44,088 nt of DNA. Source: a virus. Every line of letters starts with the position of its first letter. Within the stretch, counting starts at the first letter, position 1. The DNA lies in the IMG/VR virus record IMGVR_UViG_3300021061_000028, positions 1 through 44,088 of that record. One strand, given 5' to 3'. Under the pieces are notes generated by a model, which worked only from the letters and a program-made list of their open reading frames with translations, had not been told where the DNA came from and made no database searches. The translations under genes were made by a program, and so were the position numbers. Shown here piece after piece: positions 2,653-43,285 of this stretch.

Positions 2653-3078
2653 ATGACCCGCTACGTCATCATTTCTTTGGTCGTGCTCGTCGCGCTGGTA
2701 GTAGGGACTGCGCTTCAGTACACACCAAAGAAAGAAGAACCCCGCCCCACTATTCCCGCCAAAGAAGCGCGGGAACCAGGCGACTGTACTTACTCACGTC
2801 CCTGTACCTTAACCGTAAGACAAGACGGTTCAACCGATACGATTCCGGTGAAGCCCGGCTATCGCGTGTGCTTTGACCCACCAGTAGGCGCGAATCTTGA
2901 AGGATTCGGTTATCGAATCACGAGTGACGGGCGCGAGTACGTCTTTAATTGCACTCCTGACGAACTCGGCCAACAGAAATGCAAGCTCCCGCCGCCTGAC
3001 AGTTTCCGGTTCGTACCGAAGCCAGGTGTCACTCCACCACGGTACTGGTTCACCAACGACCCAGGCATCTTCTGCTGA
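2653..3078 (+). CDS. Membrane-anchored Cys-containing protein, paralogue A
   Basis: Function not recognised. The 141-residue protein has one N-terminal hydrophobic segment (about residues 4-21) without a lipobox, so most of it should be extracytoplasmic. Blocks shared with the next gene are RY-hydrophobic, ALQY-PK, DCT-SRPCTL, VCFDP, FGYR, and DSFRF-P-PG-TPP-YWF, with the last residue a Cys. The even spacing of Cys suggests disulfide bonds in the periplasm. The stop overlaps the next ATG (ATGA), so the two are translationally coupled. The pair sits immediately left of the hairpin-rich region and the coupling-ATPase genes. Entry exclusion, superinfection exclusion or a surface component of a transfer apparatus are all possible. 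Confidence 0.75.
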   Translation: MTRYVIISLVVLVALVVGTALQYTPKKEEPRPTIPAKEAREPGDCTYSRPCTLTVRQDGSTDTIPVKPGYRVCFDPPVGANLEGFGYRITSDGREYVFNCTPDELGQQKCKLPPPDSFRFVPKPGVTPPRYWFTNDPGIFC

Positions 3079-3509
3079 TGGCTCGATACATATTCATCGC
3101 GCTTGCAGTTTTTGTCGCCGTGGTCATTGCAACGGCTCTTCAATATCAACCGAAAGAATCGCGACAGAGCACGACCCACGTACAACCAGTCATCGAACAG
3201 CGACCTGTACATGACTGCACCTCTTCGCGTCCCTGCACCCTACAAGTTACCAACGGCACTACAGACCTTGTACGCATCCCTGACGGGAAAACTGTTTGCT
3301 TCGACCCACATTTCTGGGACAACCTTCCCCGGCTCGGCTATCACTACTCTTACCGTGGAAGACCTGAAGTTCGTTATACCTGCACCAGGAATGAAGCGGC
3401 GGCTGGCAAGTGCGCTCAAATTTACGCAGACACGTTTCGATTCGCTCCCGACCCAGGTATCACCCCACCCGCCTACTGGTTCGCGCCTATCGGCACGCCG
3501 CAGTGCTGA
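3078..3509 (+). CDS. Membrane-anchored Cys-containing protein, paralogue B
   Basis: A tandem duplicate of the preceding gene with diverged sequence (143 residues). It has the same single N-terminal membrane segment, the same DCTSSRPCTL, TVCFDP and DTFRFAPDPGITPPAYWF blocks, and a terminal Cys. The ATG overlaps the upstream TGA. No enzyme motif is visible. Its last codons contain GCGCCTATCGGC (3484-3495), a 12-base string repeated at 3572-3583 in the structured region downstream, so that region may begin inside the gene. Function unknown; see the partner. Confidence 0.75.
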   Translation: MARYIFIALAVFVAVVIATALQYQPKESRQSTTHVQPVIEQRPVHDCTSSRPCTLQVTNGTTDLVRIPDGKTVCFDPHFWDNLPRLGYHYSYRGRPEVRYTCTRNEAAAGKCAQIYADTFRFAPDPGITPPAYWFAPIGTPQC

Positions 3510-3511
3510 CC

Positions 3512-3935
3512 TCACATACCACTCTCCACTCTAGTATGTGACCCCTGTACGGTACTGAACCACTGTACATAGCGCCTATCGGCTCACTATCCCGCACCAG
3601 TCGCGCCCGCTAGCGCGTTCGACTGCGTGTGCTGTGCACTCCTCCTATTCAGTCGTCGGCCAAGCCTTTGCGCTAGCGCTTAAAGGACAGCCCCCGCAGT
3701 CGAACGCTTTGCGTCAGACGACTGGTGCGGGACTGTTACCGACCAGGCGCGTCTATCGACCGACGCCTGCTGTACCCCTCAAGTAATCCTGATTGCGCGG
3801 CGATCAGAAACTCACTTTGACTGTTACTAACTGCACGACAGAGGGGCACTGTCGCGCTAGTATTTATGTGGACTTGTTCCTTGTTTGGGCTGGCGGAAGC
3901 TCCCTTGCAAGGCGCGAGTTCTCTTCCCCCAGCCC
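3512..3935. other. Hairpin-rich non-coding region (candidate origin / oriT)
   Basis: About 420 bp without a convincing gene, packed with inverted repeats. TCACATAC/GTATGTGA (3512-3541). TGTAC-GGT/ACC-GTACA (3546-3569). A long cruciform with CCCGCACCAGTCG (3591-3603) pairing CGACTGGTGCGGG (3719-3731), inside it GCGTTCGACTGCG (3615-3627) pairing CGCAGTCGAACGC (3695-3707), and at its tip CCTTT-GCGCTAGCGC-TTAAAGG (3665-3686). CAGGCG/CGCCTG (3744-3769). CTGATTGC/GCGATCAG with a triloop (3789-3807). CGACAG/CTGTCG (3836-3854). GGGCTGG/CCAGCCC (3887-3935). CAGTCGTC (3650) can also pair with GACGACTG (3717), competing with the outer stem. The density resembles single-strand origins, packaging signals or oriT. 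The genes to the right (coupling ATPase, relaxase-like) favour oriT or a rolling-circle origin. No nick site can be assigned. Confidence 0.7.
3853..3860 (+). promoter_or_regulatory. GCTAG promoter-like motif upstream of the 269-aa gene
   Basis: CGCGCTAG followed by TATTTATG lies about 85 bases before the ATG at 3942. The same GCTAG core recurs before at least four other rightward genes. Possible -10 element; the -35 is not clear. Confidence 0.3.
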
Positions 3936-3941
3936 AGCTAC

Positions 3942-4748
3942 ATGAATTACCTCTGCGTCGGGACAAACAAAAGACCGTTACTTGAACGGATCAAAAGGCA
4001 CATTCCCGAACCTTTCTTACTCATTGATGACGGCACGATTATCGACTCACTTGATTTACCGAAGCGCAGAAAAGATAAATCCGCATTTCCAAAGGTGACG
4101 CGCTTCGATCCTGAAAGACATCATTTCAATCCTCTCAAGGACATTGATTATTTCCGCGAGCGCGAACTCGTCTCTGTCCTAGACAGCATCTCTCCGCGAG
4201 GCGACGGCACTCTTACCAAGGACACTGGATTAACCCTCGTCCTTCGAAATCTTCGCCAGTACAAACCAAAGTATCTAAAGCACCTTGTCCCGCGACCAGA
4301 CGGGCGAGCCACCACCGGCCACGTTTGGGCATACGACAAAGTTGACGAGATTCTCCTGTCGCCTGTCCTTGAGAGTGTCTTCTCGAAAGCCCGCAACTTT
4401 CCCATCAACGGCATCCTAATTGCCCGCCTAGATCCCGCCGTACTCGGAGAATACGACTGCCGAGTTCTCGGCAATTTCCTTATTTCGCAGTATCCGGGTA
4501 CGGTGGTCCTCACCGACTTCCCGCTCTACGCCGGAAAACACCATCTGCGCCTCATTCGGCAGCACCGGCTTTTCGCAGGAATCAATACTTTTGACGAGGT
4601 GCCACAGTTCAAACAACAATTGCTCCTCATAGACGAAAAGAAGGCGAGTCACTGCACGCCGGATGATGCAGAGACCCTATTCAAGTTCACCGGATTTCCA
4701 AAGGACAGTACCGAGCACAGAGACTTCATGACGGACGCACTTCAATAG
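3942..4748 (+). CDS. Uncharacterised protein, possible degenerate ATPase partner of the coupling protein
   Basis: From the ATG at 3942 the product is about 269 residues. A longer TTG-initiated frame from 3885 runs through the GGGCTGG hairpin and is less likely. No clear ribosome site precedes the ATG, so translation may depend on the upstream hairpin. Visible features are FNPLKDIDYFRERELVS, a GDGTLTKDTGLTLVLRNL segment and VVLTDFPLYAGKHHLRLIR followed by AGINTFDEV. From memory these resemble the later motifs of HerA/VirD4-like ATPases of mobile elements, but no Walker A is present. The next gene is a coupling ATPase 11 bases downstream in the same direction, so a shared complex is likely. Function inferred only from that context. 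Confidence 0.6.
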   Translation: MNYLCVGTNKRPLLERIKRHIPEPFLLIDDGTIIDSLDLPKRRKDKSAFPKVTRFDPERHHFNPLKDIDYFRERELVSVLDSISPRGDGTLTKDTGLTLVLRNLRQYKPKYLKHLVPRPDGRATTGHVWAYDKVDEILLSPVLESVFSKARNFPINGILIARLDPAVLGEYDCRVLGNFLISQYPGTVVLTDFPLYAGKHHLRLIRQHRLFAGINTFDEVPQFKQQLLLIDEKKASHCTPDDAETLFKFTGFPKDSTEHRDFMTDALQ

Positions 4749-4759
4749 GGGGGGGGAAG

Positions 4760-6313
4760 ATGGGCGTACTGTTCCTGGGAATCCTCGCCGCAATGGGAGC
4801 GGTGGCGTGGATTTGGTTCTCGTACAACGACTACGACAAGACGCAGCCCCCGCCGAAGTCACACCTCTACGGCGTGCTGTTTCAAGTCTTCCTCCTCTTC
4901 GTCGTTCTCTCTGCCGCCTCCCACTACCTGCTTAACACTACTCCGGGCTGGAGCGCCCTCATTCTTCTTGTGGGCGCTGGAGTCACCGGATTCGCGGCGA
5001 TTCAAGTTTCACAGCAGGAAGAACCGAAGAAGGCGGAACCACTGCCGACCGTCGAGGCCACTCCCAGAGAAAAACTCAACAACCTTTGGCGGACAAAAAC
5101 GCGTTTTGAGCACGCGCATATTCTCGGAGCAACAGGCGCCGGAAAGACTGAGCTGCTGAAATACCTCGCGAACCAAGATATTGAGACAAACGCGGCCGTC
5201 ATTGTCATGGCCCCAAAGGGGAACCTCGTTCCTCACCTCGCCAAGTTAAGTGCGATAGATGCCGACCGACTGATACTTGTGGAACCGAGCGAACAGCACC
5301 CCGTTGCGCTCAACATCTTTGATTTAGGTGGAGACGCGAATCAGACCGTGTCTCTTCTAAACTTTGTCTTTGCCTCGACCGAAACGACCGACAAGCAAGC
5401 CACCCTGCTCAACTACTGCATCCGCCTTCTTCTCAAGGTTCCGAATGCCACGTTGAAGACGCTTCGTGACCTCCTTCACGAACACAAGCTTCCCTCCCAC
5501 TACCTGCCATACGTGGCTCAGCTCTCTGAAAGCGGGCAAACCTTCTTCAAAGAAGGCTTTGGTATGGAGGGAACGGACGGGTACGCCGCGACCAAGAAGC
5601 AGCTTTTCTGGCGCATTGATTCTCTGCTTGAGAATCCCATCATTGAGAAGATGTTATGCGCCCCGTCCACTCTCGTGAGTGTTTCGGACGTGATGGCTGC
5701 CGGTAAAGTCCTCCTCATTGACACCTCGATACGTCACCTCGGCAATGAAGGTTCTTCTTTCTTCGGACGTTTCTTTATCGCCCTTATTCAGCTCGCCACT
5801 CAAAAGCGTGATACCAGTCGCCACCTCCGCTCTGTCTATGTCTATATAGATGAACTGAGCCATTACTTAGAAGGTACGACCGGCCACTTAGAACAACTCC
5901 TAGACCGAGCGCGAGAGGCGAAAGTAGGTTTAACCCTCGCGCATCAGCAACTCCGGCAGCTCTCGGATATCTCCCCGAAACTAGAAGCCTCAGTACACAA
6001 CACCGCTATCAAGTTGTGTGGGCGAGTGAATGACCACGACTCGAAGCGGATGGGGGCAGAGATGGGACTAGACCCGCCCATACTCAAAAATCTTCCTGCG
6101 CTCGACTTTTACGCATCTGGGCGTGACTCTCGATTCCTCTTTCACGTCGTCCCAGGATTTCTTGACGAACTTCCACAGAGAACCGAACGCGAGATGAAGC
6201 AGCTCATGGCGCGTAACAGCGAACGTGTTGCGTCACCGCGTCTCACGCTCGTGAAAATTGCGGCTGAACCCGAAGCGAAGTACACAGATGATCCGGGGAC
6301 AAAAGCATGGTGA
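4760..6313 (+). CDS. VirD4/TraD-like coupling ATPase with membrane anchor
   Basis: A 517-residue protein of the type IV coupling protein / FtsK-HerA superfamily, which drives DNA-protein substrates through a membrane channel. Three hydrophobic segments (about residues 2-20, 36-58 and 65-83) anchor it. Walker A GATGAGKT is at 123-130, APKGN at 151-155, Walker B VYVYIDE at about 359-365, and motif LTLAHQQLRQL at 391-401, a layout typical of TraD/TraG C-terminal domains. It follows a G-run and a GGGGAAG ribosome site 11 bases after the previous gene and is followed by a replication-relaxation family gene. Virion packaging is already covered by TerL, so this ATPase probably serves DNA transfer, a Zot-like export step, or segregation. 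It is unusual in a tailed phage. Confidence 0.85.
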   Translation: MGVLFLGILAAMGAVAWIWFSYNDYDKTQPPPKSHLYGVLFQVFLLFVVLSAASHYLLNTTPGWSALILLVGAGVTGFAAIQVSQQEEPKKAEPLPTVEATPREKLNNLWRTKTRFEHAHILGATGAGKTELLKYLANQDIETNAAVIVMAPKGNLVPHLAKLSAIDADRLILVEPSEQHPVALNIFDLGGDANQTVSLLNFVFASTETTDKQATLLNYCIRLLLKVPNATLKTLRDLLHEHKLPSHYLPYVAQLSESGQTFFKEGFGMEGTDGYAATKKQLFWRIDSLLENPIIEKMLCAPSTLVSVSDVMAAGKVLLIDTSIRHLGNEGSSFFGRFFIALIQLATQKRDTSRHLRSVYVYIDELSHYLEGTTGHLEQLLDRAREAKVGLTLAHQQLRQLSDISPKLEASVHNTAIKLCGRVNDHDSKRMGAEMGLDPPILKNLPALDFYASGRDSRFLFHVVPGFLDELPQRTEREMKQLMARNSERVASPRLTLVKIAAEPEAKYTDDPGTKAW

Positions 6314-6325
6314 GAGTGCTAGCGT

Positions 6326-7324
6326 ATGTGTATGTCTGCGACACGCGACACACTCGACCGCCGCATCCGTCATGCACCACCTCAACCTGGTGAGCGGTAC
6401 CGGCTGGTAGAAGACCTGGACATCCCCGCGCTTGCGGCGCTTGGCCGGCATCGCGTTCTCTCTACTCCGCTTCTTTCCCACTTCACTGGACGGGATCACT
6501 ACAACACCGATCAGCGCCGGTTTAAGCAGCTCTACAACGGCTATTGTGCCGACCCTGACTGCACTCCTGACAATCCCAAAGAACACGAGCATGACCTAAT
6601 CAGCCACCTCGCGCGGCTTCACGAGCAGTTCAACCACATCGACTATCTCAAGCACGACCTCGTACACAGCCTCACCCCGTACGCACAGAAGGAGCTGAAG
6701 AATCTCGGCATCCCTTGCCTTCCAACCGGGGGATGGTTTGAGCACCAGCTCATGGGAGGCTTCATCGGCGGATCGTTCGAGATCCTGGCGGCCGATCACA
6801 ACCTTCACTACCTCTCCAATTTCGACTTAGGGGTAGAGAAGCTCACCCTACCCTTAAGAGATGCGACACAAGAGGAACTGAGACATCAGCGCGATACCGG
6901 TCAGAGACCTGACATACCCAAGGTGATTCCCGATGCGCTGTTCGCACTTCTCTATTCCAACGGAAAGAAGCGGGTTTTTGCCCGCGAGGATGACCGAGGG
7001 ACCGAGTCAGTGGAAGGGAAGCAGCTCGAAGCTACTTACATCGGGAAGAAGCTCCTCAACTGGATAGAGGTTCTTCGCGCTCGCCGGTACAAGGACGTGT
7101 GGGGCGTCGACGGTCTCATGATTATGGTTCCCGTTGTAGATCCACGCCGCGCAACCGCACTGATGGCGAAACTCAAAGAATATGACGAGCGTTACGCGGG
7201 ACACTTCATCTTCAAAGACTTCCCTCAATTTGGAAAGCACTGGTACATCCCCAAAGATGTATTGAAGGACGTGTACGAACCGTGGGTAAGTTACCGCGGC
7301 CCGTTCGACATCACGAAGCCATAA
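6326..7324 (+). CDS. Replication-relaxation family protein
   Basis: 332 residues from ATG 6326 (an alternative ATG is at 6332). It matches, by recognition, the Replic_Relax family (PF13814), found beside coupling ATPases on plasmids and integrative elements. The N-terminal part (about 30-60) looks like a winged helix (ALAALGRHRVLSTPLLSHF). A central LTPYAQKELKNLGI linker follows. The C-terminal half has IPDALFALLYS then VFAREDDRGTE and, further on, a KLLNWIEVLRARRY helix, resembling a restriction-nuclease-like fold. Family members have been tied to plasmid replication and DNA relaxation. In this context it is the best candidate to nick or bind the hairpin region at 3512-3935. No Tyr relaxase motif with a three-His cluster is visible, so catalysis is uncertain. 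Confidence 0.75.
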   Translation: MCMSATRDTLDRRIRHAPPQPGERYRLVEDLDIPALAALGRHRVLSTPLLSHFTGRDHYNTDQRRFKQLYNGYCADPDCTPDNPKEHEHDLISHLARLHEQFNHIDYLKHDLVHSLTPYAQKELKNLGIPCLPTGGWFEHQLMGGFIGGSFEILAADHNLHYLSNFDLGVEKLTLPLRDATQEELRHQRDTGQRPDIPKVIPDALFALLYSNGKKRVFAREDDRGTESVEGKQLEATYIGKKLLNWIEVLRARRYKDVWGVDGLMIMVPVVDPRRATALMAKLKEYDERYAGHFIFKDFPQFGKHWYIPKDVLKDVYEPWVSYRGPFDITKP

Positions 7325-7326
7325 AG

Positions 7327-7348
7327 GAAAACCGCCCCGTAGGGCGGT
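7327..7348 (-). terminator. Terminator of the reverse-strand 76-aa gene
   Basis: ACCGCCC (7331-7337) and GGGCGGT (7342-7348) form a 7-bp stem with a 4-base loop. Read leftward it is followed by TTTT, so it best serves the reverse gene at 7353-7583. Read rightward there is no T-run, but the stem may still separate the two converging units. Confidence 0.75.
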
Positions 7349-7352
7349 GTGA

Positions 7353-7583
7353 CTACTCGCGGTTCTCGCCCTGCGTGTAGTCGATGTAGTTCTCGGCGCG
7401 TTCGGCGACCTTGGCGAGGTTCAGCAAGTCGGCGTGGCCGAAGCTGTCCCCGTCTTTCCACTTGTCGTCCTTGTCCTTGTACGAGCGGACGAACTGGACG
7501 TTGAAGTGCTCGCCGTTTCTCCACACGGTCGCTTTCACGCCTCCGATGCGGAAGGTCGCAGCGGGCTTGTTCCCGTTTGCCAT
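7353..7583 (-). CDS. Conserved small protein of plasmids and phages, unknown role
   Basis: A 76-residue protein with the recurrent pattern ATFRIGGVKATVW, FNVQFVRSYKDKDDKWKDGDSF, ADLLNLAKVAERA. Similar small proteins occur, from memory, on plasmids and in phages beside DNA-transfer or replication genes. The alternating beta pattern followed by a helix suggests a compact nucleic-acid-binding fold, but no motif proves it. The ribosome site AAAGGAGA lies before the ATG at 7583. It is alone on the reverse strand between the relaxase-like gene and the primase-domain gene, with its own terminator. Opposite orientation suggests expression in the lysogen or early. Confidence 0.7.
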   Translation of the reverse strand: MANGNKPAATFRIGGVKATVWRNGEHFNVQFVRSYKDKDDKWKDGDSFGHADLLNLAKVAERAENYIDYTQGENRE

Positions 7584-7783: not shown

Positions 7784-8386
7784 GTGCGTAAGTACATTGA
7801 CTTCGCAGGCGTAGAGCGGCTGGCCTCCATCGAACAGCTCGTGGAGATGCTTGGCCTTCCGGTCAAGACCGAGAAATCGCAGCTCCGCTGTTCCTGTCCC
7901 ATTCACGGTGGCGACGAGCGCACCCTGGCCATCACCCCCGGCGTTCGTTCGAGGCGCGGCAGTCTCGGCGTGTTCTTCTGCCAGAAGGCCCAGAGCGGCG
8001 GGGATCGCATCGCCCTCGTAGCTCACTGCATGGACATCGGGCAGCAGGACGCGGCCTTCTTCATCGCCGAGCAATTCGGGGAAGACGGTACTAGTGACAG
8101 TACGAGTAACAGTCACAGTACTGTTAGCAAAGAGCGGGCCAAGTTCGACCCGGCGGAGTTCTCCAAGAAGCTCCAGTACACCGACGAGGTGAAGGCAACC
8201 GGCCTCACGGAAGAGCAGGCCAAGAGCTTCCGAATCGGCTTCTACCGCGGGCACCTGTATTACCCCGTCCACTACCAGAGCGGCGCCCTAGCGGGCTGGA
8301 ACAAGCTCGCAGACGGCAAGCTCGTGCCGCCTCCCGCCTGGCTGCCCGACAGCTCCAACGTCGTTCCGCTCAAAAAAGCGGGTTGA
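7784..8386 (+). CDS. CHC2-type zinc-finger primase domain protein (no TOPRIM)
   Basis: The GTG start is set by AAGGAGG 5 bases upstream. The 200-residue product begins like bacterial DnaG primases: YIDFAGVERLASIEQLVEMLGLPV, then a zinc site CSCPIHGGDE with FFCQKAQSGGDRIALV about 35 residues later. One of the usual Cys in the second half is replaced (FCQKA instead of FCFxC), partly balanced by the extra Cys of CSC. A Ser/Thr-rich spacer (DSTSNSHST) and a short C-terminal part with YYPVHYQSGALAGWNKL resembling the start of the primase catalytic region follow. No TOPRIM or helicase domain is present. It may be a DNA-binding adaptor, a primase remnant, or an inhibitor of host primase. A terminator follows. 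Confidence 0.75.
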   Translation: MRKYIDFAGVERLASIEQLVEMLGLPVKTEKSQLRCSCPIHGGDERTLAITPGVRSRRGSLGVFFCQKAQSGGDRIALVAHCMDIGQQDAAFFIAEQFGEDGTSDSTSNSHSTVSKERAKFDPAEFSKKLQYTDEVKATGLTEEQAKSFRIGFYRGHLYYPVHYQSGALAGWNKLADGKLVPPPAWLPDSSNVVPLKKAG

Positions 8387-11860: not shown

Positions 11861-12739
11861 CTACGGACCGCCTTTCAGCCACCACTTGATCCCCGCGGCA
11901 ACTGCAGTGATTCCGGCGGAAAAGGTGGTCAATGCGCCCTTCTCACTTTCCGTGAGTCGTAAAACTACTAGGGTCAATAGTTTGAGGAGCCAACCGGCAA
12001 TCACGGACAGCGTGAACAGGGCGAACAGTCCAACGCGGATGAACGCAAGAAAGTCTGCCATGTGGGCAACATGCAGCATCAGGATTTGAGTAGATCCCTC
12101 CTGCTGGCCAAGCCATTTCTGAAAATCGAGAATTATCGGATAGTCATACCGAAATGGCTCCGTGGTGGCCACTATTGAGGCTACAGATGCGGAGAGAGCG
12201 AACGCGAGACCAAACGAGAAAGCGGTTGTTGCGAGGATGACTCCGAAAAAGAGGGCGGTGCTCCTCTTCTTTCCCTCGAACCACGAAATCGGCCACCTAA
12301 GCAACTTGTCGGCGAGCCAGAGAGAAACGAAAGCTTGCACAAAGAGCACGCCAAACAGCACAGACCGGAAGCCCTCCATCTCGTAGGAGGGGGCCTCGTC
12401 CGCGGAGTAGCGCTCTAGCAGGTGATAGAAATGAGTCCAACCCACTCCCCAAAGACTCTTCGTCCACCAAGCGAGGGTGCCCATGACAACCACGATGGCA
12501 AGCAGGCGGCGAATGCTGAATGTGCTGCCAGCAACCCTTTCAAACACACGCAACGAGAACTTCGCTTCAGCTAAGCCCAGTCCTGGCCACTTGAGGTACG
12601 ACAGGCGAATCCACCAAGATTCCAGTTCGCCTCTAATCCGCTTATTGAGTTCCTTACCGCCAAGGAACTCCACGACGCCAATTGCCACTGTGCAGATACC
12701 CAAGGCCGTCACGATTGCGTTTATCCATTGGACCGCCAT
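11861..12739 (-). CDS. Multi-pass membrane protein, paralogue 1
   Basis: 292 residues on the reverse strand with about five hydrophobic segments (near 8-26, 80-98, 128-146, 163-185 and 235-257). The ribosome site GGAGAG precedes the ATG at 12739. It shares GGKELNK-IR, WWIRLSY, WP-GLAEA-FSL, RLTESEKGALT and the C-terminal IKWWLKG with the reverse-strand gene at 18335-19159. Both lie within or beside the rightward late genes but read the other way, as expected of morons expressed in the lysogen. A role in superinfection exclusion or abortive infection fits membrane proteins of this kind; no known family was recognised. Confidence 0.75.
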   Translation of the reverse strand: MAVQWINAIVTALGICTVAIGVVEFLGGKELNKRIRGELESWWIRLSYLKWPGLGLAEAKFSLRVFERVAGSTFSIRRLLAIVVVMGTLAWWTKSLWGVGWTHFYHLLERYSADEAPSYEMEGFRSVLFGVLFVQAFVSLWLADKLLRWPISWFEGKKRSTALFFGVILATTAFSFGLAFALSASVASIVATTEPFRYDYPIILDFQKWLGQQEGSTQILMLHVAHMADFLAFIRVGLFALFTLSVIAGWLLKLLTLVVLRLTESEKGALTTFSAGITAVAAGIKWWLKGGP

Positions 12740-17985: not shown

Positions 17986-18338
17986 AAGACCTTGACCGCG
18001 TAAAGGAGTTGTTCCTCACCGATGTTGACGAGGAAACGCGCAAGGAGAACGAGGAAAAGATTATCGAGTGGGAGCGCGGGATCCGCGTAAGCGAGTCCTT
18101 CAAGGAGTGGCAGGAAACCGACGTAACGCGGCAGATCGTCTCCAAGGTGAAGGAGACGTACCGCGACCTGTCAATGGCCCTTATTCACAATCGAACGTTG
18201 ACGGACGCGGAGCGGGCTTCCATTCACGCGAGGCAGGATGCTTGCCTGTTCATTCTTTCCCTCGCTGATGTGGATGCCGATGGACAGATAAGAAGCATCC
18301 AGGCGCAGATCACGAAAGCGCTCCTTGCCGCGACCTAG
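17982..18338 (+). CDS. 118-aa helical protein after the portal
   Basis: Overlaps the portal stop by 4 bases (ATGA). It is mostly helical and charged, with two long helices (about 5-60 and 70-115) and no Cys-rich or membrane segment. The stop is in the palindrome CTAG (18335-18338) shared with the converging membrane gene. It may be a head-assembly helper, as judged from position only. Confidence 0.65.
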   Translation: MKDLDRVKELFLTDVDEETRKENEEKIIEWERGIRVSESFKEWQETDVTRQIVSKVKETYRDLSMALIHNRTLTDAERASIHARQDACLFILSLADVDADGQIRSIQAQITKALLAAT

Positions 18339-19159
18339 ATCGGCCCCTTCACAAGCAGCTTAATGCTTGCAGCGATGCCGGTCAGAAATGCCGAGATAAC
18401 CGTAAGAGCGCCCTTCTCCGACTCAGTTAGTCTGTAAATCGTAGCCTTCACCCATTGCAATCCCCACCCCGCTAGTACCGAGGCAGCGAACAACGCGAAC
18501 AGCGCGAGACGCAAATACCACAGCATGTCGCTCGCAATTGCCACGTATACCGTGACACTACCTGCGAAGAAGGAAAACCACATGGGCAGCTCTGGAAAGT
18601 GGTCGGCTATCACAAAGTCAGTAGCCAGCAGCATCGGAACACTCATGAAAGCCTCGGACACAAGCGCCGATACAGAGATCGTTGCTACTAACACAAGAAG
18701 GAAGTAGAGGGAGCTGTACTTTCTGCCTTCAAGCCGGTTAATCGATACCACCAGAATCCGGTGTGTCACCCATAACGATATGAAAACTTGTGCACCCAAA
18801 ATGCCTTGGTGTAGTACGAACTCCAGAGGATGATCCAGAACCTCTTCGACAAAGGAATCGGACGCATCCAAGTAATAAAATAGGTAAAAATTGTATGCGA
18901 GCAGCACGACGGCAATGGCGATGACGCGCCGCACGCTGATCGTCGCTCCCACTAGACGCTCTAGGACGGCGAGTGAGAATCTGGCTTCAGCCAAGCCTAC
19001 GGTGGGCCACGTCACATAGGACAAGCGAATCCACCACTCCTCAAGCTTCGCTCTGATCTTCTTGTTCAGCTCTTTGCCCCCATAGAACTCCGTCATAGCG
19101 ATAACGATCGTGCATATCGTTAGCGCAACGACTGCCCAGCCAGCCCACTTGTTGAGCAC
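18335..19159 (-). CDS. Multi-pass membrane protein, paralogue 2
   Basis: GTG start at 19159 with GGGAGGAG upstream, 274 residues, about six hydrophobic segments. It is a diverged duplicate of the gene at 11861-12739: GGKELNKKIR, WWIRLSYVTWP-VGLAEARFSLAVLERL, RLTESEKGALT, IKLLVKG are shared. It splits the head operon between the portal-side genes and the scaffold, on the opposite strand, with no terminator of its own. That placement points to a moron. Family not recognised; superinfection exclusion is a guess. Confidence 0.75.
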   Translation of the reverse strand: MLNKWAGWAVVALTICTIVIAMTEFYGGKELNKKIRAKLEEWWIRLSYVTWPTVGLAEARFSLAVLERLVGATISVRRVIAIAVVLLAYNFYLFYYLDASDSFVEEVLDHPLEFVLHQGILGAQVFISLWVTHRILVVSINRLEGRKYSSLYFLLVLVATISVSALVSEAFMSVPMLLATDFVIADHFPELPMWFSFFAGSVTVYVAIASDMLWYLRLALFALFAASVLAGWGLQWVKATIYRLTESEKGALTVISAFLTGIAASIKLLVKGPI

Positions 19160-19233
19160 GGCAACTCCTCCCGTCCCACGCCACGAACCTCAAGGCGTTT
19201 TCTACACTGAGGTCATAACAATAATCAATACGT

Positions 19234-19434
19234 ATGGCAAAAACAGACGCAGAGAAAGCAGCCGCAAAGGCCGCTAAAGACGCAGAGAAAGCAGCCGCAA
19301 AGGCCGCTTCAAAAGACTCTGTGTCTGTCTCTTGGAACGGCGGCACCCGCGAATTCTCCCGTGAAGTACACGGGGAGGAGTTCGCTGATCTTGCCGATCA
19401 GTTCGCCGCAAAGCACGGCGGCAAGGTTGCGTAG
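19234..19434 (+). CDS. 66-aa Lys/Ala-repeat protein
   Basis: The N-terminal 27 residues come from two copies of a 30-base unit (19246-19275 and 19279-19308), giving a repeated DAEKAAAKAA helix. The C-terminal part (SVSWNGGTREFSREVHGEEF, DQFAAKHGGKV) is a small globular domain. A charged helix plus small domain beside the scaffold gene might decorate the head or bind DNA. The number of 33-base repeats may vary between relatives. Confidence 0.65.
   Translation: MAKTDAEKAAAKAAKDAEKAAAKAASKDSVSVSWNGGTREFSREVHGEEFADLADQFAAKHGGKVA
19246..19308 (+). repeat. Two in-frame 30-base direct repeats
   Basis: GACGCAGAGAAAGCAGCC with its following 12 bases (GCAAAGGCCGCT) occurs twice, exactly, 33 bases apart. 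The period is a multiple of three, so gain or loss of a unit keeps the frame. Confidence 0.9.
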
Positions 19435-19466
19435 TTTGCACGGGGCCTCGCCATGGGGCCTCGAAC

Positions 19467-19504
19467 AAAAGACGTAACAGTCTTTTTCCCCTCCTCGGGG
19501 TTTT
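19467..19504 (+). terminator. Tandem terminator-like hairpins before the scaffold gene
   Basis: AAAAGAC/GTCTTTT (19467-19486) followed by TTTTT-type run, then CCCC/GGGG (19488-19500) followed by TTTT. They could end the short upstream unit and leave scaffold and coat to a separate promoter. Confidence 0.7.
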
Positions 19505-20562: not shown

Positions 20563-21846
20563 ATGGCTGCAAACCCGAACACGATGACATTCAAGCAGGT
20601 ATTCAGTGCTGAATACCAAATGTCGCACTTCAAGGAGCCTGTGTACCCGATTCTCGGAGACACACGCCTCGAAGCTGGGCTATCGAAAGGGCAGACCGTA
20701 AATCGTTCTTACGCGTCTGACGTACAAGTGAACGACATGGGCGGCGATGGTTCCTACGAACCACAAGCCGTCGTTGATACAGCGGAGACGCTGACGATCA
20801 ACAAGGAGAAGGAAGCCTCGATCTACATCAAGAAGCTTGATGAACTCCAGGCACACCTTCCCCTCAAGCAGAAGTACGGTCGCAAGCTCGCTAACGCCCT
20901 CATCAACCAGATTGACGGGGACGTGCTTCTTGCTGCCTACCAAGGCGCAGGCAGCACGCTTGACGATGGCTCCTTTGGAGGCACGTCCGGCAACGGCCAC
21001 ACGCCAACTGCTTCGAACATCGCGACTGTCTTCACGACCGCGCAGCAAAAACTTCGCCTGAAGAACGTTTGGTACAACAAGCGCTTCCAAGCGGGCAACA
21101 TGAAGCTCGAAGTGCCGGAGGGACTCCCGATCGCGATTATCTCGCCCGAAGTCCTTACCTACATTCAGCTTTACTTGGGTGGCAAGGACACCCAGCTTGG
21201 TGACCAGGTATCCACGAACGGATACTCCGGGTACTTCATGAGCTTCAACTGCTTCGTCAGCAATGCGCTTCCATGGACCGCGCAGCTTGAGCTGCCAACC
21301 ATCCCGACTGCAGGAGACACCCTCGTCATCAACGGCGTCACTCTGACTGCTGCTGCTGACGGAGCTGCAACCAACGCGGGTGAGTGGTCTATCCAGGCAA
21401 CTGCTGACCTTTCGTCAGCGAGCTTGGTACAGCTCATCAACGGCACGGGCACGGCGGGCGCGGACAACTACATCGAGGTAAGCGCCGCAAATCGTCGCCT
21501 TCTCAAGAACATCACCGCGGCTTACGACTCGGGCACCAATATCCTTACTCTCACGAGTTCAGGATGGGGCACGGTTGTCGTCTCCGAGACGTTCACCGCA
21601 GCGGGCAACGTCTTCACAACTGGCAAGCAGAAACTTCACTGCCTCTTTGGGCTTTCGAAGTCTGTCTCTGTCGTCGTGCAGAAGGACCCTTCGCTTGAGG
21701 AGAACTTTGTGAGCCGCAAGATCGGCCGTGACTTCATTGTCTGGGCCGCTTACGGCATCAAGGTCTTCGTCGATCAGGCCGTTCAGATCGTGGCCTACGC
21801 AGTGAACTCCGCAAGCTTCACCGCAGCTTCCACCACGCCTAAGTAA
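20563..21846 (+). CDS. Major capsid protein (HK97 fold) with inserted beta domain
   Basis: 427 residues following the scaffold gene. N-terminal VFSAEYQMSHFKEPVYPIL, a coiled E-loop region and C-terminal SKSVSVVVQKDPSLEENF... DFIVWAAYGIKVFVDQAVQI resemble the P22-like coat group. Residues about 245-352 (GDTLVINGVTLTAAADGA ... YIEVSAANRRLLKNI) look like an extra beta-rich module of the kind found fused to coat or tail proteins, comparable in position to the P22 insertion domain. No head protease is encoded nearby, consistent with unprocessed coat. Confidence 0.85.
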   Translation: MAANPNTMTFKQVFSAEYQMSHFKEPVYPILGDTRLEAGLSKGQTVNRSYASDVQVNDMGGDGSYEPQAVVDTAETLTINKEKEASIYIKKLDELQAHLPLKQKYGRKLANALINQIDGDVLLAAYQGAGSTLDDGSFGGTSGNGHTPTASNIATVFTTAQQKLRLKNVWYNKRFQAGNMKLEVPEGLPIAIISPEVLTYIQLYLGGKDTQLGDQVSTNGYSGYFMSFNCFVSNALPWTAQLELPTIPTAGDTLVINGVTLTAAADGAATNAGEWSIQATADLSSASLVQLINGTGTAGADNYIEVSAANRRLLKNITAAYDSGTNILTLTSSGWGTVVVSETFTAAGNVFTTGKQKLHCLFGLSKSVSVVVQKDPSLEENFVSRKIGRDFIVWAAYGIKVFVDQAVQIVAYAVNSASFTAASTTPK

Positions 21847-42786: not shown

Positions 42787-42927
42787 ATGAAAACCAAGAA
42801 GCCCAAGCTCACGCGGACCCTGCGAGTGTCCGAGTCGGCGTATCAGTTCTTTCGGAAGCTCGCCTACAAGAACAAGACCAAAATCATCCGAGTCATTGAC
42901 TCGATGATTGACGGCGAGTGGGTCTGA
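42787..42927 (+). CDS. 46-aa ribbon-helix-helix regulator
   Basis: MKTKKPKLTRTLRVSESAYQ begins with a beta strand (LTRTLRV) followed by two helices (FFRKLAYKNKTKIIRVIDS), the fold of Arc/MetJ-type repressors. The ribosome site is AGGT close to the ATG, next to a 12-bp palindrome. It lies between the leftward recombination operon and the rightward RusA gene, where temperate phages place their switch, so it may be the lysogeny repressor or a Cro-like protein. No CI-type repressor was seen elsewhere. Confidence 0.7.
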   Translation: MKTKKPKLTRTLRVSESAYQFFRKLAYKNKTKIIRVIDSMIDGEWV

Positions 42928-42960
42928 GTATCCCCAGTATCCACACCACCACCCCTTGCC

Positions 42961-43095
42961 CTTAATGAAGTCTCCATTAAGATGGGGTGATGGGATCAGG
43001 ATGCAAACCATCTGCAATCAGGAGCGAACGCGCAATGCATGTCGCTTTCTCTCCTGATCCCAGGACAAATTAGCTGCTTTCGGGCAGCTTTTTTG
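42961..43095 (+). ncRNA. Candidate small RNA or attenuator with terminator
   Basis: CTTAATG/CATTAAG (42961-42981) forms a 7-bp hairpin. GGGATCAGGA (42992-43001) can pair with TCCTGATCCC (43052-43061). ATCAGGAG (43017-43024) can instead pair with CTCCTGAT (43051-43058), extended by AGCGA/TCGCT (43023-43046). The two stems share the same 3' strand, an either-or switch. The terminator at 43072 follows. The order hairpin, switch, terminator fits a small RNA or a leader controlling RusA. Confidence 0.5.
43072..43095 (+). terminator. Rho-independent terminator
   Basis: AGCTGC (43072-43077) and GCAGCT (43084-43089) around TTTCGG, then TTTTTT. It ends the structured RNA candidate. Confidence 0.88.
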
Positions 43096-43285
43096 TTTTC
43101 GTCCCGGGGGGTGTAACTGGGGGACGTTAATACGCCAGTTCTCGCGCAGGCTCCGCAAGTCGAAAAACAGCGGCAGAACTCAATGGGAAAGACTTAGGAG
43201 TTGCGCTCTCTTCTCTCACACTCTGTGGGGGAGGGGGGCGCAACCCAGAATCTAATAGGAAAGCAGGTAAAGATTTGAATACAGC
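43096..43285. other. Leader region before rusA
   Basis: About 190 bases without a gene. It contains a G-run (GGGGGGTG), a purine-rich GGGGGAGGGGGG tract and a short CAGGTAAAG purine stretch before the RusA ATG. No strong promoter was identified by eye. Confidence 0.35.

Follow-up and report, generated by a model that had tools for sequence, protein, structure and literature searches.

Genes and features at the locus

In the window, by which we mean the whole stretch of DNA that was analysed (44,088 nucleotides), the gap between ORF 3078-3509 on one side and the operon 3942-4748/4760-6313/6326-7324 on the other harbors two separate conserved elements, referred to as elements A and C, and several smaller hairpins of unproven meaning. 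The earlier note on this DNA had described at least eight hairpins packed into ~420 bp; the region is indeed highly structured, but it is better split into the nested hairpin A, the leader hairpin C and these smaller hairpins. The features of the locus are as follows.

~3572-3750, + strand (operon orientation): element A, nested DNA hairpin, candidate oriT or nick origin
3590-3603, + strand: outer stem of A, left arm TCCCGCACCAGTCG, 14-bp perfect complement of 3719-3732
3719-3732, + strand: outer stem of A, right arm, pairs with 3590-3603
3615-3627, + strand: inner stem of A, left arm GCGTTCGACTGCG, 13 bp, with the invariant GAC at 3621-3623
3695-3707, + strand: inner stem of A, right arm, pairs with 3615-3627
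3858-3886, + strand: probable promoter/leader, a weak -10-like TAGTATTTAT followed by GGACTTGTTCCTTGTTT
3886-3936, + strand: element C, apparent leader hairpin, separated by 5 nt from the ATG of ORF 3942
3942-4748, + strand: probable pseudo-ATPase of predicted VirB4/TrwB fold, 268 aa, with degenerate Walker A and B
4760-6313, + strand: coupling-protein-like ATPase (VirD4/TrwB/HerA family)
6326-7324, + strand: replication-relaxation protein (PF13814, MOBC-type relaxase-like), predicted winged HTH and PD-(D/E)XK-like nuclease domain
7784-8386, + strand: CHC2 zinc-finger (DnaG-like) protein, weak Pfam match, whose homologues adjoin the module in relatives

The ends of the record overlap by ~150 bp of near-identical sequence, indicating a circular or terminally redundant genome of ~43.9 kb. 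Genes for an integrase, an MT-A70 methylase, a BglII-type endonuclease and an AlpA-like protein are accompanied by those for terminase, major head, Erf and exonuclease proteins, and also by RadC and RusA genes; tRNA genes are absent from the window. None of the window genes tested was recognised as a pore gene, and transfer, if any, would thus need a pore of the host. The GC skew is negative over nearly the whole window (1-44088), independently of gene strand and with no clear switch; a bidirectional origin marked by such a switch was consequently rejected. The MT-A70 methylase and BglII-type restriction endonuclease genes are adjacent (935-2256), between the integrase gene and element A, and are likely a restriction-modification cargo. 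Between the AlpA-like gene and element A lies a tandem pair of small paralogous ORFs with a hydrophobic stretch at the N-terminus (2653-3509), not seen at this position in relatives, and two paralogous membrane-protein ORFs are located on the minus strand (11861-12739 and 18335-19159) among plus-strand genes.

Geometry and folding of element A

Both of the perfect 13-bp stems described earlier are exact: the inner one at 3615-3627/3695-3707, and the outer one at 3591-3603/3719-3731, which even reaches 14 bp (3590-3603/3719-3732) and sits inside a 32-nt imperfect repeat (3572-3603/3719-3750). The tip palindrome (GCGCTAGCGC, 3670-3679) and the alternative pairing (3650-3657/3717-3724) are present as well. 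The outer and inner stems are the only inverted repeats of at least 13 bp within 260 nt in the window. When the region 3512-3935 was folded and compared with 100 shuffles, none of these folded as low (0/100, with RNA and with DNA parameters), the z values being -6.2 for RNA of the + strand, -7.0 for RNA of the - strand and -6.3 for DNA. The degree of structure had been called unusual; this is true of the nested perfect stems, which are exceptional, but the folding energy ranks only 2nd of 207 among segments of 424 nt, about equal to that of a stretch of the major-head gene. With fixed segments of 200 nt, which cut the 180-nt hairpin, the region is outside the top 25. It is thus the nested perfect stems, and not the energy, that distinguish the region. 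Three other stretches (20565-20988, 42825-43248 and 19201-19500) have a fold energy similar to that of 3512-3935, without long perfect stems.

Conservation of element A in relatives

No DNA-level relative of the window was found in the phage records collection. Related viral contigs were obtained by protein-guided scans, together with two contigs from Hyphomicrobiales MAGs, the latter hinting at alphaproteobacterial hosts. A scan for nested inverted repeats found element A in the window and in 8 of 11 related records, with three other matches in ~440 kb; these eleven records and the window contain 12 nested pairs, versus 0-4 (mean ~1) in shuffled copies. A ninth related record (L025) has the element with shorter perfect arms. 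The same rule, applied blindly to 15 newly fetched loci, recovered element A in 14 of them, versus 2 of 75 shuffled copies, and all 14 out-of-sample copies carry GAC in the inner arm. Across the 25 loci that have element A besides the window, the sequence has changed and the pairing has been kept, and the GAC of the inner arm is invariant (26/26 loci, the window included). The outer stem usually starts with TTCCGC, often with a bulged A, and the inner arm approximates gCCaCGACCCAAT.

When the arms from 11 loci were aligned, 420 Watson-Crick pairs were counted, against 6 G.T, 8 A.C and 20 other mismatches, and many alignment columns hold three or four pair types. Base pairing in element A is under selection: the compensatory changes that the earlier note had proposed to look for are found in the relatives, with up to four pair types per column. 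Relatives that keep the flanking genes without the stems would have told against the reading of the earlier note; nearly all relatives keep the stems, an outcome in its favour.

Wherever a homologue of ORF 3942 is present, element A lies within ~2.5 kb of it, upstream in most records and downstream in others; in one record (G005), the distance of ~2.5 kb holds only if the record is circular. In four records, many kb separate the element from the genes for the integrase, the coupling ATPase and the relaxase-like protein, and it is instead near the ORF 3942 homologue; the distance to the integrase gene in four records is ~7-15 kb, and that to the terminase gene is many kb in several. Some records have element A beside integrase and AlpA genes, and one locus (L010) has it with the ATPase and relaxase-like genes, without an ORF 3942 homologue. 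In a Pseudolabrys MAG (L032 7830-8662), the ORF 3942 homologue is frameshifted over two overlapping frames and both A and C are intact. A second long hairpin of different sequence, with GAGCCAAAACCCG arms, is found near element A in record G006 (L028 7073-7196). No direct-repeat array was detected near element A, where repeats of at least 9 nt are few and mostly near the shuffle level. Element A shares with oriT sites the presence of intergenic inverted repeats near relaxosome genes, its distance from the relaxase gene varying by record.

Pairing of element A as DNA or as RNA

If element A functioned as RNA, G.U pairs on the sense strand would be tolerated above A.C; as 6 and 8 were observed, respectively, the pairing is DNA-like. 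Predicted G-U pairs make up ~4% of the pairs of A on both strands (19/489 and 21/493, summed); the corresponding numbers for C are 23/228 on the sense strand and 14/221 on the other. Although the mismatch counts are small, they suggest that element A pairs as DNA. At the gathering score, no Rfam model matches the window, and a search at E up to 5 gave nothing credible.

Proteins encoded by the operon

ORF 4760-6313 scores above the cut-off for PF01935, PF10412 and PF02534, and its P-loop is intact, with invariant G126, G128 and K129. Its sequence points to a coupling-like ATPase, with a putative role in coupling DNA to a pore.

The match of ORF 6326-7324 to PF13814, which is listed as a MobC relaxase superfamily (PMC5357655), is below the cut-off (16.2 versus 25.3 bits), while the positional homologue in the related locus L011, a protein to which the window copy is related, attains 44.8 bits. 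In the structural model (12-sequence alignment, pLDDT 81), residues ~22-130 superimpose on MarR-type winged HTH domains with Z up to 10, and residues 137-322 on PaqCI with a moderate Z of 9.6 over 136 residues; the best Foldseek matches for this nuclease-like domain are MunI and the XisH family, also with moderate scores. All aligned sequences keep D203, and nearly all keep E221. The MOBC relaxases have restriction endonucleases among their relatives, and in TraX of pAD1 a winged HTH forms the N-terminal part (PMC12857230). The predicted fold of ORF 6326-7324 is consistent with this MOBC relaxase layout, and its nicking activity is putative.

No sequence family was matched by ORF 3942-4748. 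Its model (10 sequences, pLDDT 89) superimposes over its full length on VirB4 (Z 16.8 over 252 residues) and TrwB (Z 14.6), whereas profile comparison with coupling proteins gave ~1% probability, the kinship being visible in the fold model only. By our own reading of the alignment, Walker A is GTADKT or worse and Walker B has DF or DL in place of DE, and the protein is probably a pseudo-ATPase. At the position of ORF 3942, locus L010 has an open frame with an intact P-loop (6271-7383) that matches the coupling-ATPase model; the pseudo-ATPase may thus descend from such a gene.

Distribution of the module in relatives and on plasmids

Each of the eight viral records of the first set that have an ORF 3942 homologue also has genes for an integrase, a coupling-like ATPase, a relaxase-like protein and a CHC2 protein, and a phrog_2 terminase was found in five of them. 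Among 15 later records, the coupling ATPase and the relaxase-like gene were each found in 12 and the phrog_2 terminase in nine. Three records (G017, G026 and G028), which may be fragments, have element A and the ORF 3942 homologue, with no ATPase or relaxase-like gene seen. The terminase and portal of the window, used as probes of the relatives, gave no matches; the relatives thus share the module and not those virion proteins.

The ATPase and replication-relaxation gene pair is also found on plasmids, one copy being annotated as "MobC family replication-relaxation protein". On a Methylomagnum plasmid, the intergenic stretch preceding the relaxase-like gene contains a nested hairpin (12 + 17 bp; score 29, versus 21 for the best of 30 shuffles), and separate repeats lie beside the rep gene, an arrangement that favours transfer over vegetative replication. 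In a Vibrio maritimus plasmid (L065 4320-4424), a 21-bp perfect inverted repeat lies just upstream of the coupling-protein gene, which is followed by a MobC-annotated gene. Since no comparable nearby hairpin is found in 5 of the 8 plasmid loci examined with the gene pair, the plasmid comparison is supporting and not decisive.

Element C and the putative leader

Element C is present before ORF 3942 and each of its first ten homologues (11/11). Above its basal stem of ~6-9 bp come a middle stem, then an internal loop (GCA.. / CTCTAC in many copies) and finally a top stem. Most homologues have a TANAAT-like box upstream, followed by a GG..GCTCTTTTT-like T-rich tract before the hairpin; the box of the window is degenerate. 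A strict rule for element C recovers it in 9 of 15 later loci, yet also in 20 of 150 shuffles, and for this reason the shared inner sequence outweighs the count. Element C has the look of an mRNA leader belonging to the operon, and translation of the pseudo-ATPase is probably under its control. A tRNA in the leader was also considered, the reverse strand being faintly tRNA-like, but was rejected as ARAGORN detects none.

Discussion

The best supported reading among those considered is that element A is an oriT-like site or nick origin where a MOBC-type system acts, and we give it about an even chance. The upkeep of element A by complementarity, its DNA-like pairing and the company of a relaxase-like protein and a coupling-like ATPase agree with an origin on which the two proteins act. 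The earlier note had likened the whole structured region to single-strand origins or oriT. This likeness is retained for element A, with its compensatory changes and DNA-like pairing, the adjoining genes for a coupling-like ATPase and a MOBC-relaxase-like protein, and capsid genes in the same genome, but it does not extend to the right-hand hairpin (3886-3936), a probable mRNA leader instead, and it has neither an Rfam match nor a direct-repeat array on its side. According to the proposed scheme, element A would be a cis-acting DNA site forming a nested hairpin when the strand is single or extruded, on which the MOBC-type relaxase (6326-7324), the coupling ATPase (4760-6313) and its pseudo-ATPase partner (3942-4748) would act. 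The integrase-bearing dsDNA phage would be nicked at A and one strand unwound, the outcome being mobilization through a host conjugation pore and/or replication of the rolling-circle type. We infer the action of A at the DNA level, its recognition by the relaxase and the nicking from the conserved pairing, the gene content and the predicted folds; the site may serve transfer or replication.

Replication from element A is indeed the main rival explanation. Here, A would be the phage's own origin for rolling-circle or single-strand initiation; the relaxase-like protein would be the initiator, and conjugation would not be involved. Three observations are consistent with such an origin: the window genes tested include no other recognised replication initiator, the module is accompanied by a CHC2 primase-like gene, and the GC skew is negative all round regardless of gene strand, as expected of a one-directional mode. 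However, a coupling-type ATPase would be unneeded, the skew shows no switch at A, and on the Methylomagnum plasmid, which bears a similar hairpin, there is a separate rep gene with repeats beside it; we consider this explanation unlikely. A somewhat lower probability is assigned to element A being a structured RNA, such as a regulatory or guide-like transcript of the region upstream of the operon. RNA folding is strong on both strands, the neighbouring element C looks like RNA, and SGI1 depends on a small RNA that its own mobilization region encodes (PMC9299015), but in element A G.T is no commoner than A.C (6 and 8), G-U pairs are at ~4% on either strand versus 10% in C, Rfam gives no match, and the promoter-like box is downstream of A in most homologues.

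Improbable, finally, is a DNA site of another kind, that is, an attachment site, packaging site, centromere or operator. Sites of these types often contain inverted repeats, and A does lie beside integrase and AlpA genes in some records; nevertheless, the element is ~7-15 kb from the integrase in four records, which led us to reject attP, and many kb from the terminase in several. An operator would have no need for arms of ~20 bp that change in sequence while keeping their complementarity, and a similar nested hairpin is located on a plasmid beside its relaxase gene.

The oriT-like reading of element A finds its closest likeness in the MOBC systems (pAD1 TraX, CloDF13 MobC), in which a relaxase with a winged HTH and a restriction-endonuclease-like domain is found beside a VirD4-type coupling ATPase, with intergenic inverted repeats nearby (PMC12857230; PMC6414798; the details of the pAD1 and CloDF13 oriT are taken from reviews). 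Unlike in these systems, the module described here is located in integrase-bearing phages with terminase genes, and includes a pseudo-ATPase and a nested hairpin with a GAC core; in contrast to pAD1, no TraX-like direct-repeat array was found. Integrative and mobilizable elements (PMC5357655) also combine an integrase, a coupling ATPase and a PF13814-type relaxase with no obvious transfer pore, but the genome of the window additionally has terminase and capsid genes. Phage and conjugation functions are likewise mixed in P1-like phage-plasmids and in mobilizable plasmids that descend from these (PMC10879196). In that set, phage transfer has mostly been lost by the elements with mob/oriT, which only two of the P1-like phage-plasmids possess, whereas the module coexists here with terminase genes in many records. 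As for SGI1 with its small RNA (PMC9299015), it too has a structured non-coding region adjoining mobilization genes, but the protein families here are different, and the pairing of element A looks DNA-like, not RNA-like.

Somewhat short of an even chance, in our estimate, is the broader proposal that integrase-bearing dsDNA phages of one group have made a conjugation-type module for DNA processing (MOBC-type relaxase, coupling ATPase, pseudo-ATPase of VirB4/TrwB fold and hairpin origin) a conserved component of their life cycle. One and the same element could then travel both in a capsid and as a mobilized single strand, or it would replicate by means of conjugation enzymes. If conserved throughout the phage group, the hairpin and the MOBC/coupling module would make this group a concrete candidate for movement or replication that also employs conjugation enzymes. 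In element A, moreover, there is a candidate MOBC origin of a new structural class, whose covariation is clear and whose core motif is conserved, and a pseudo-coupling ATPase that awaits explanation comes to light with it.
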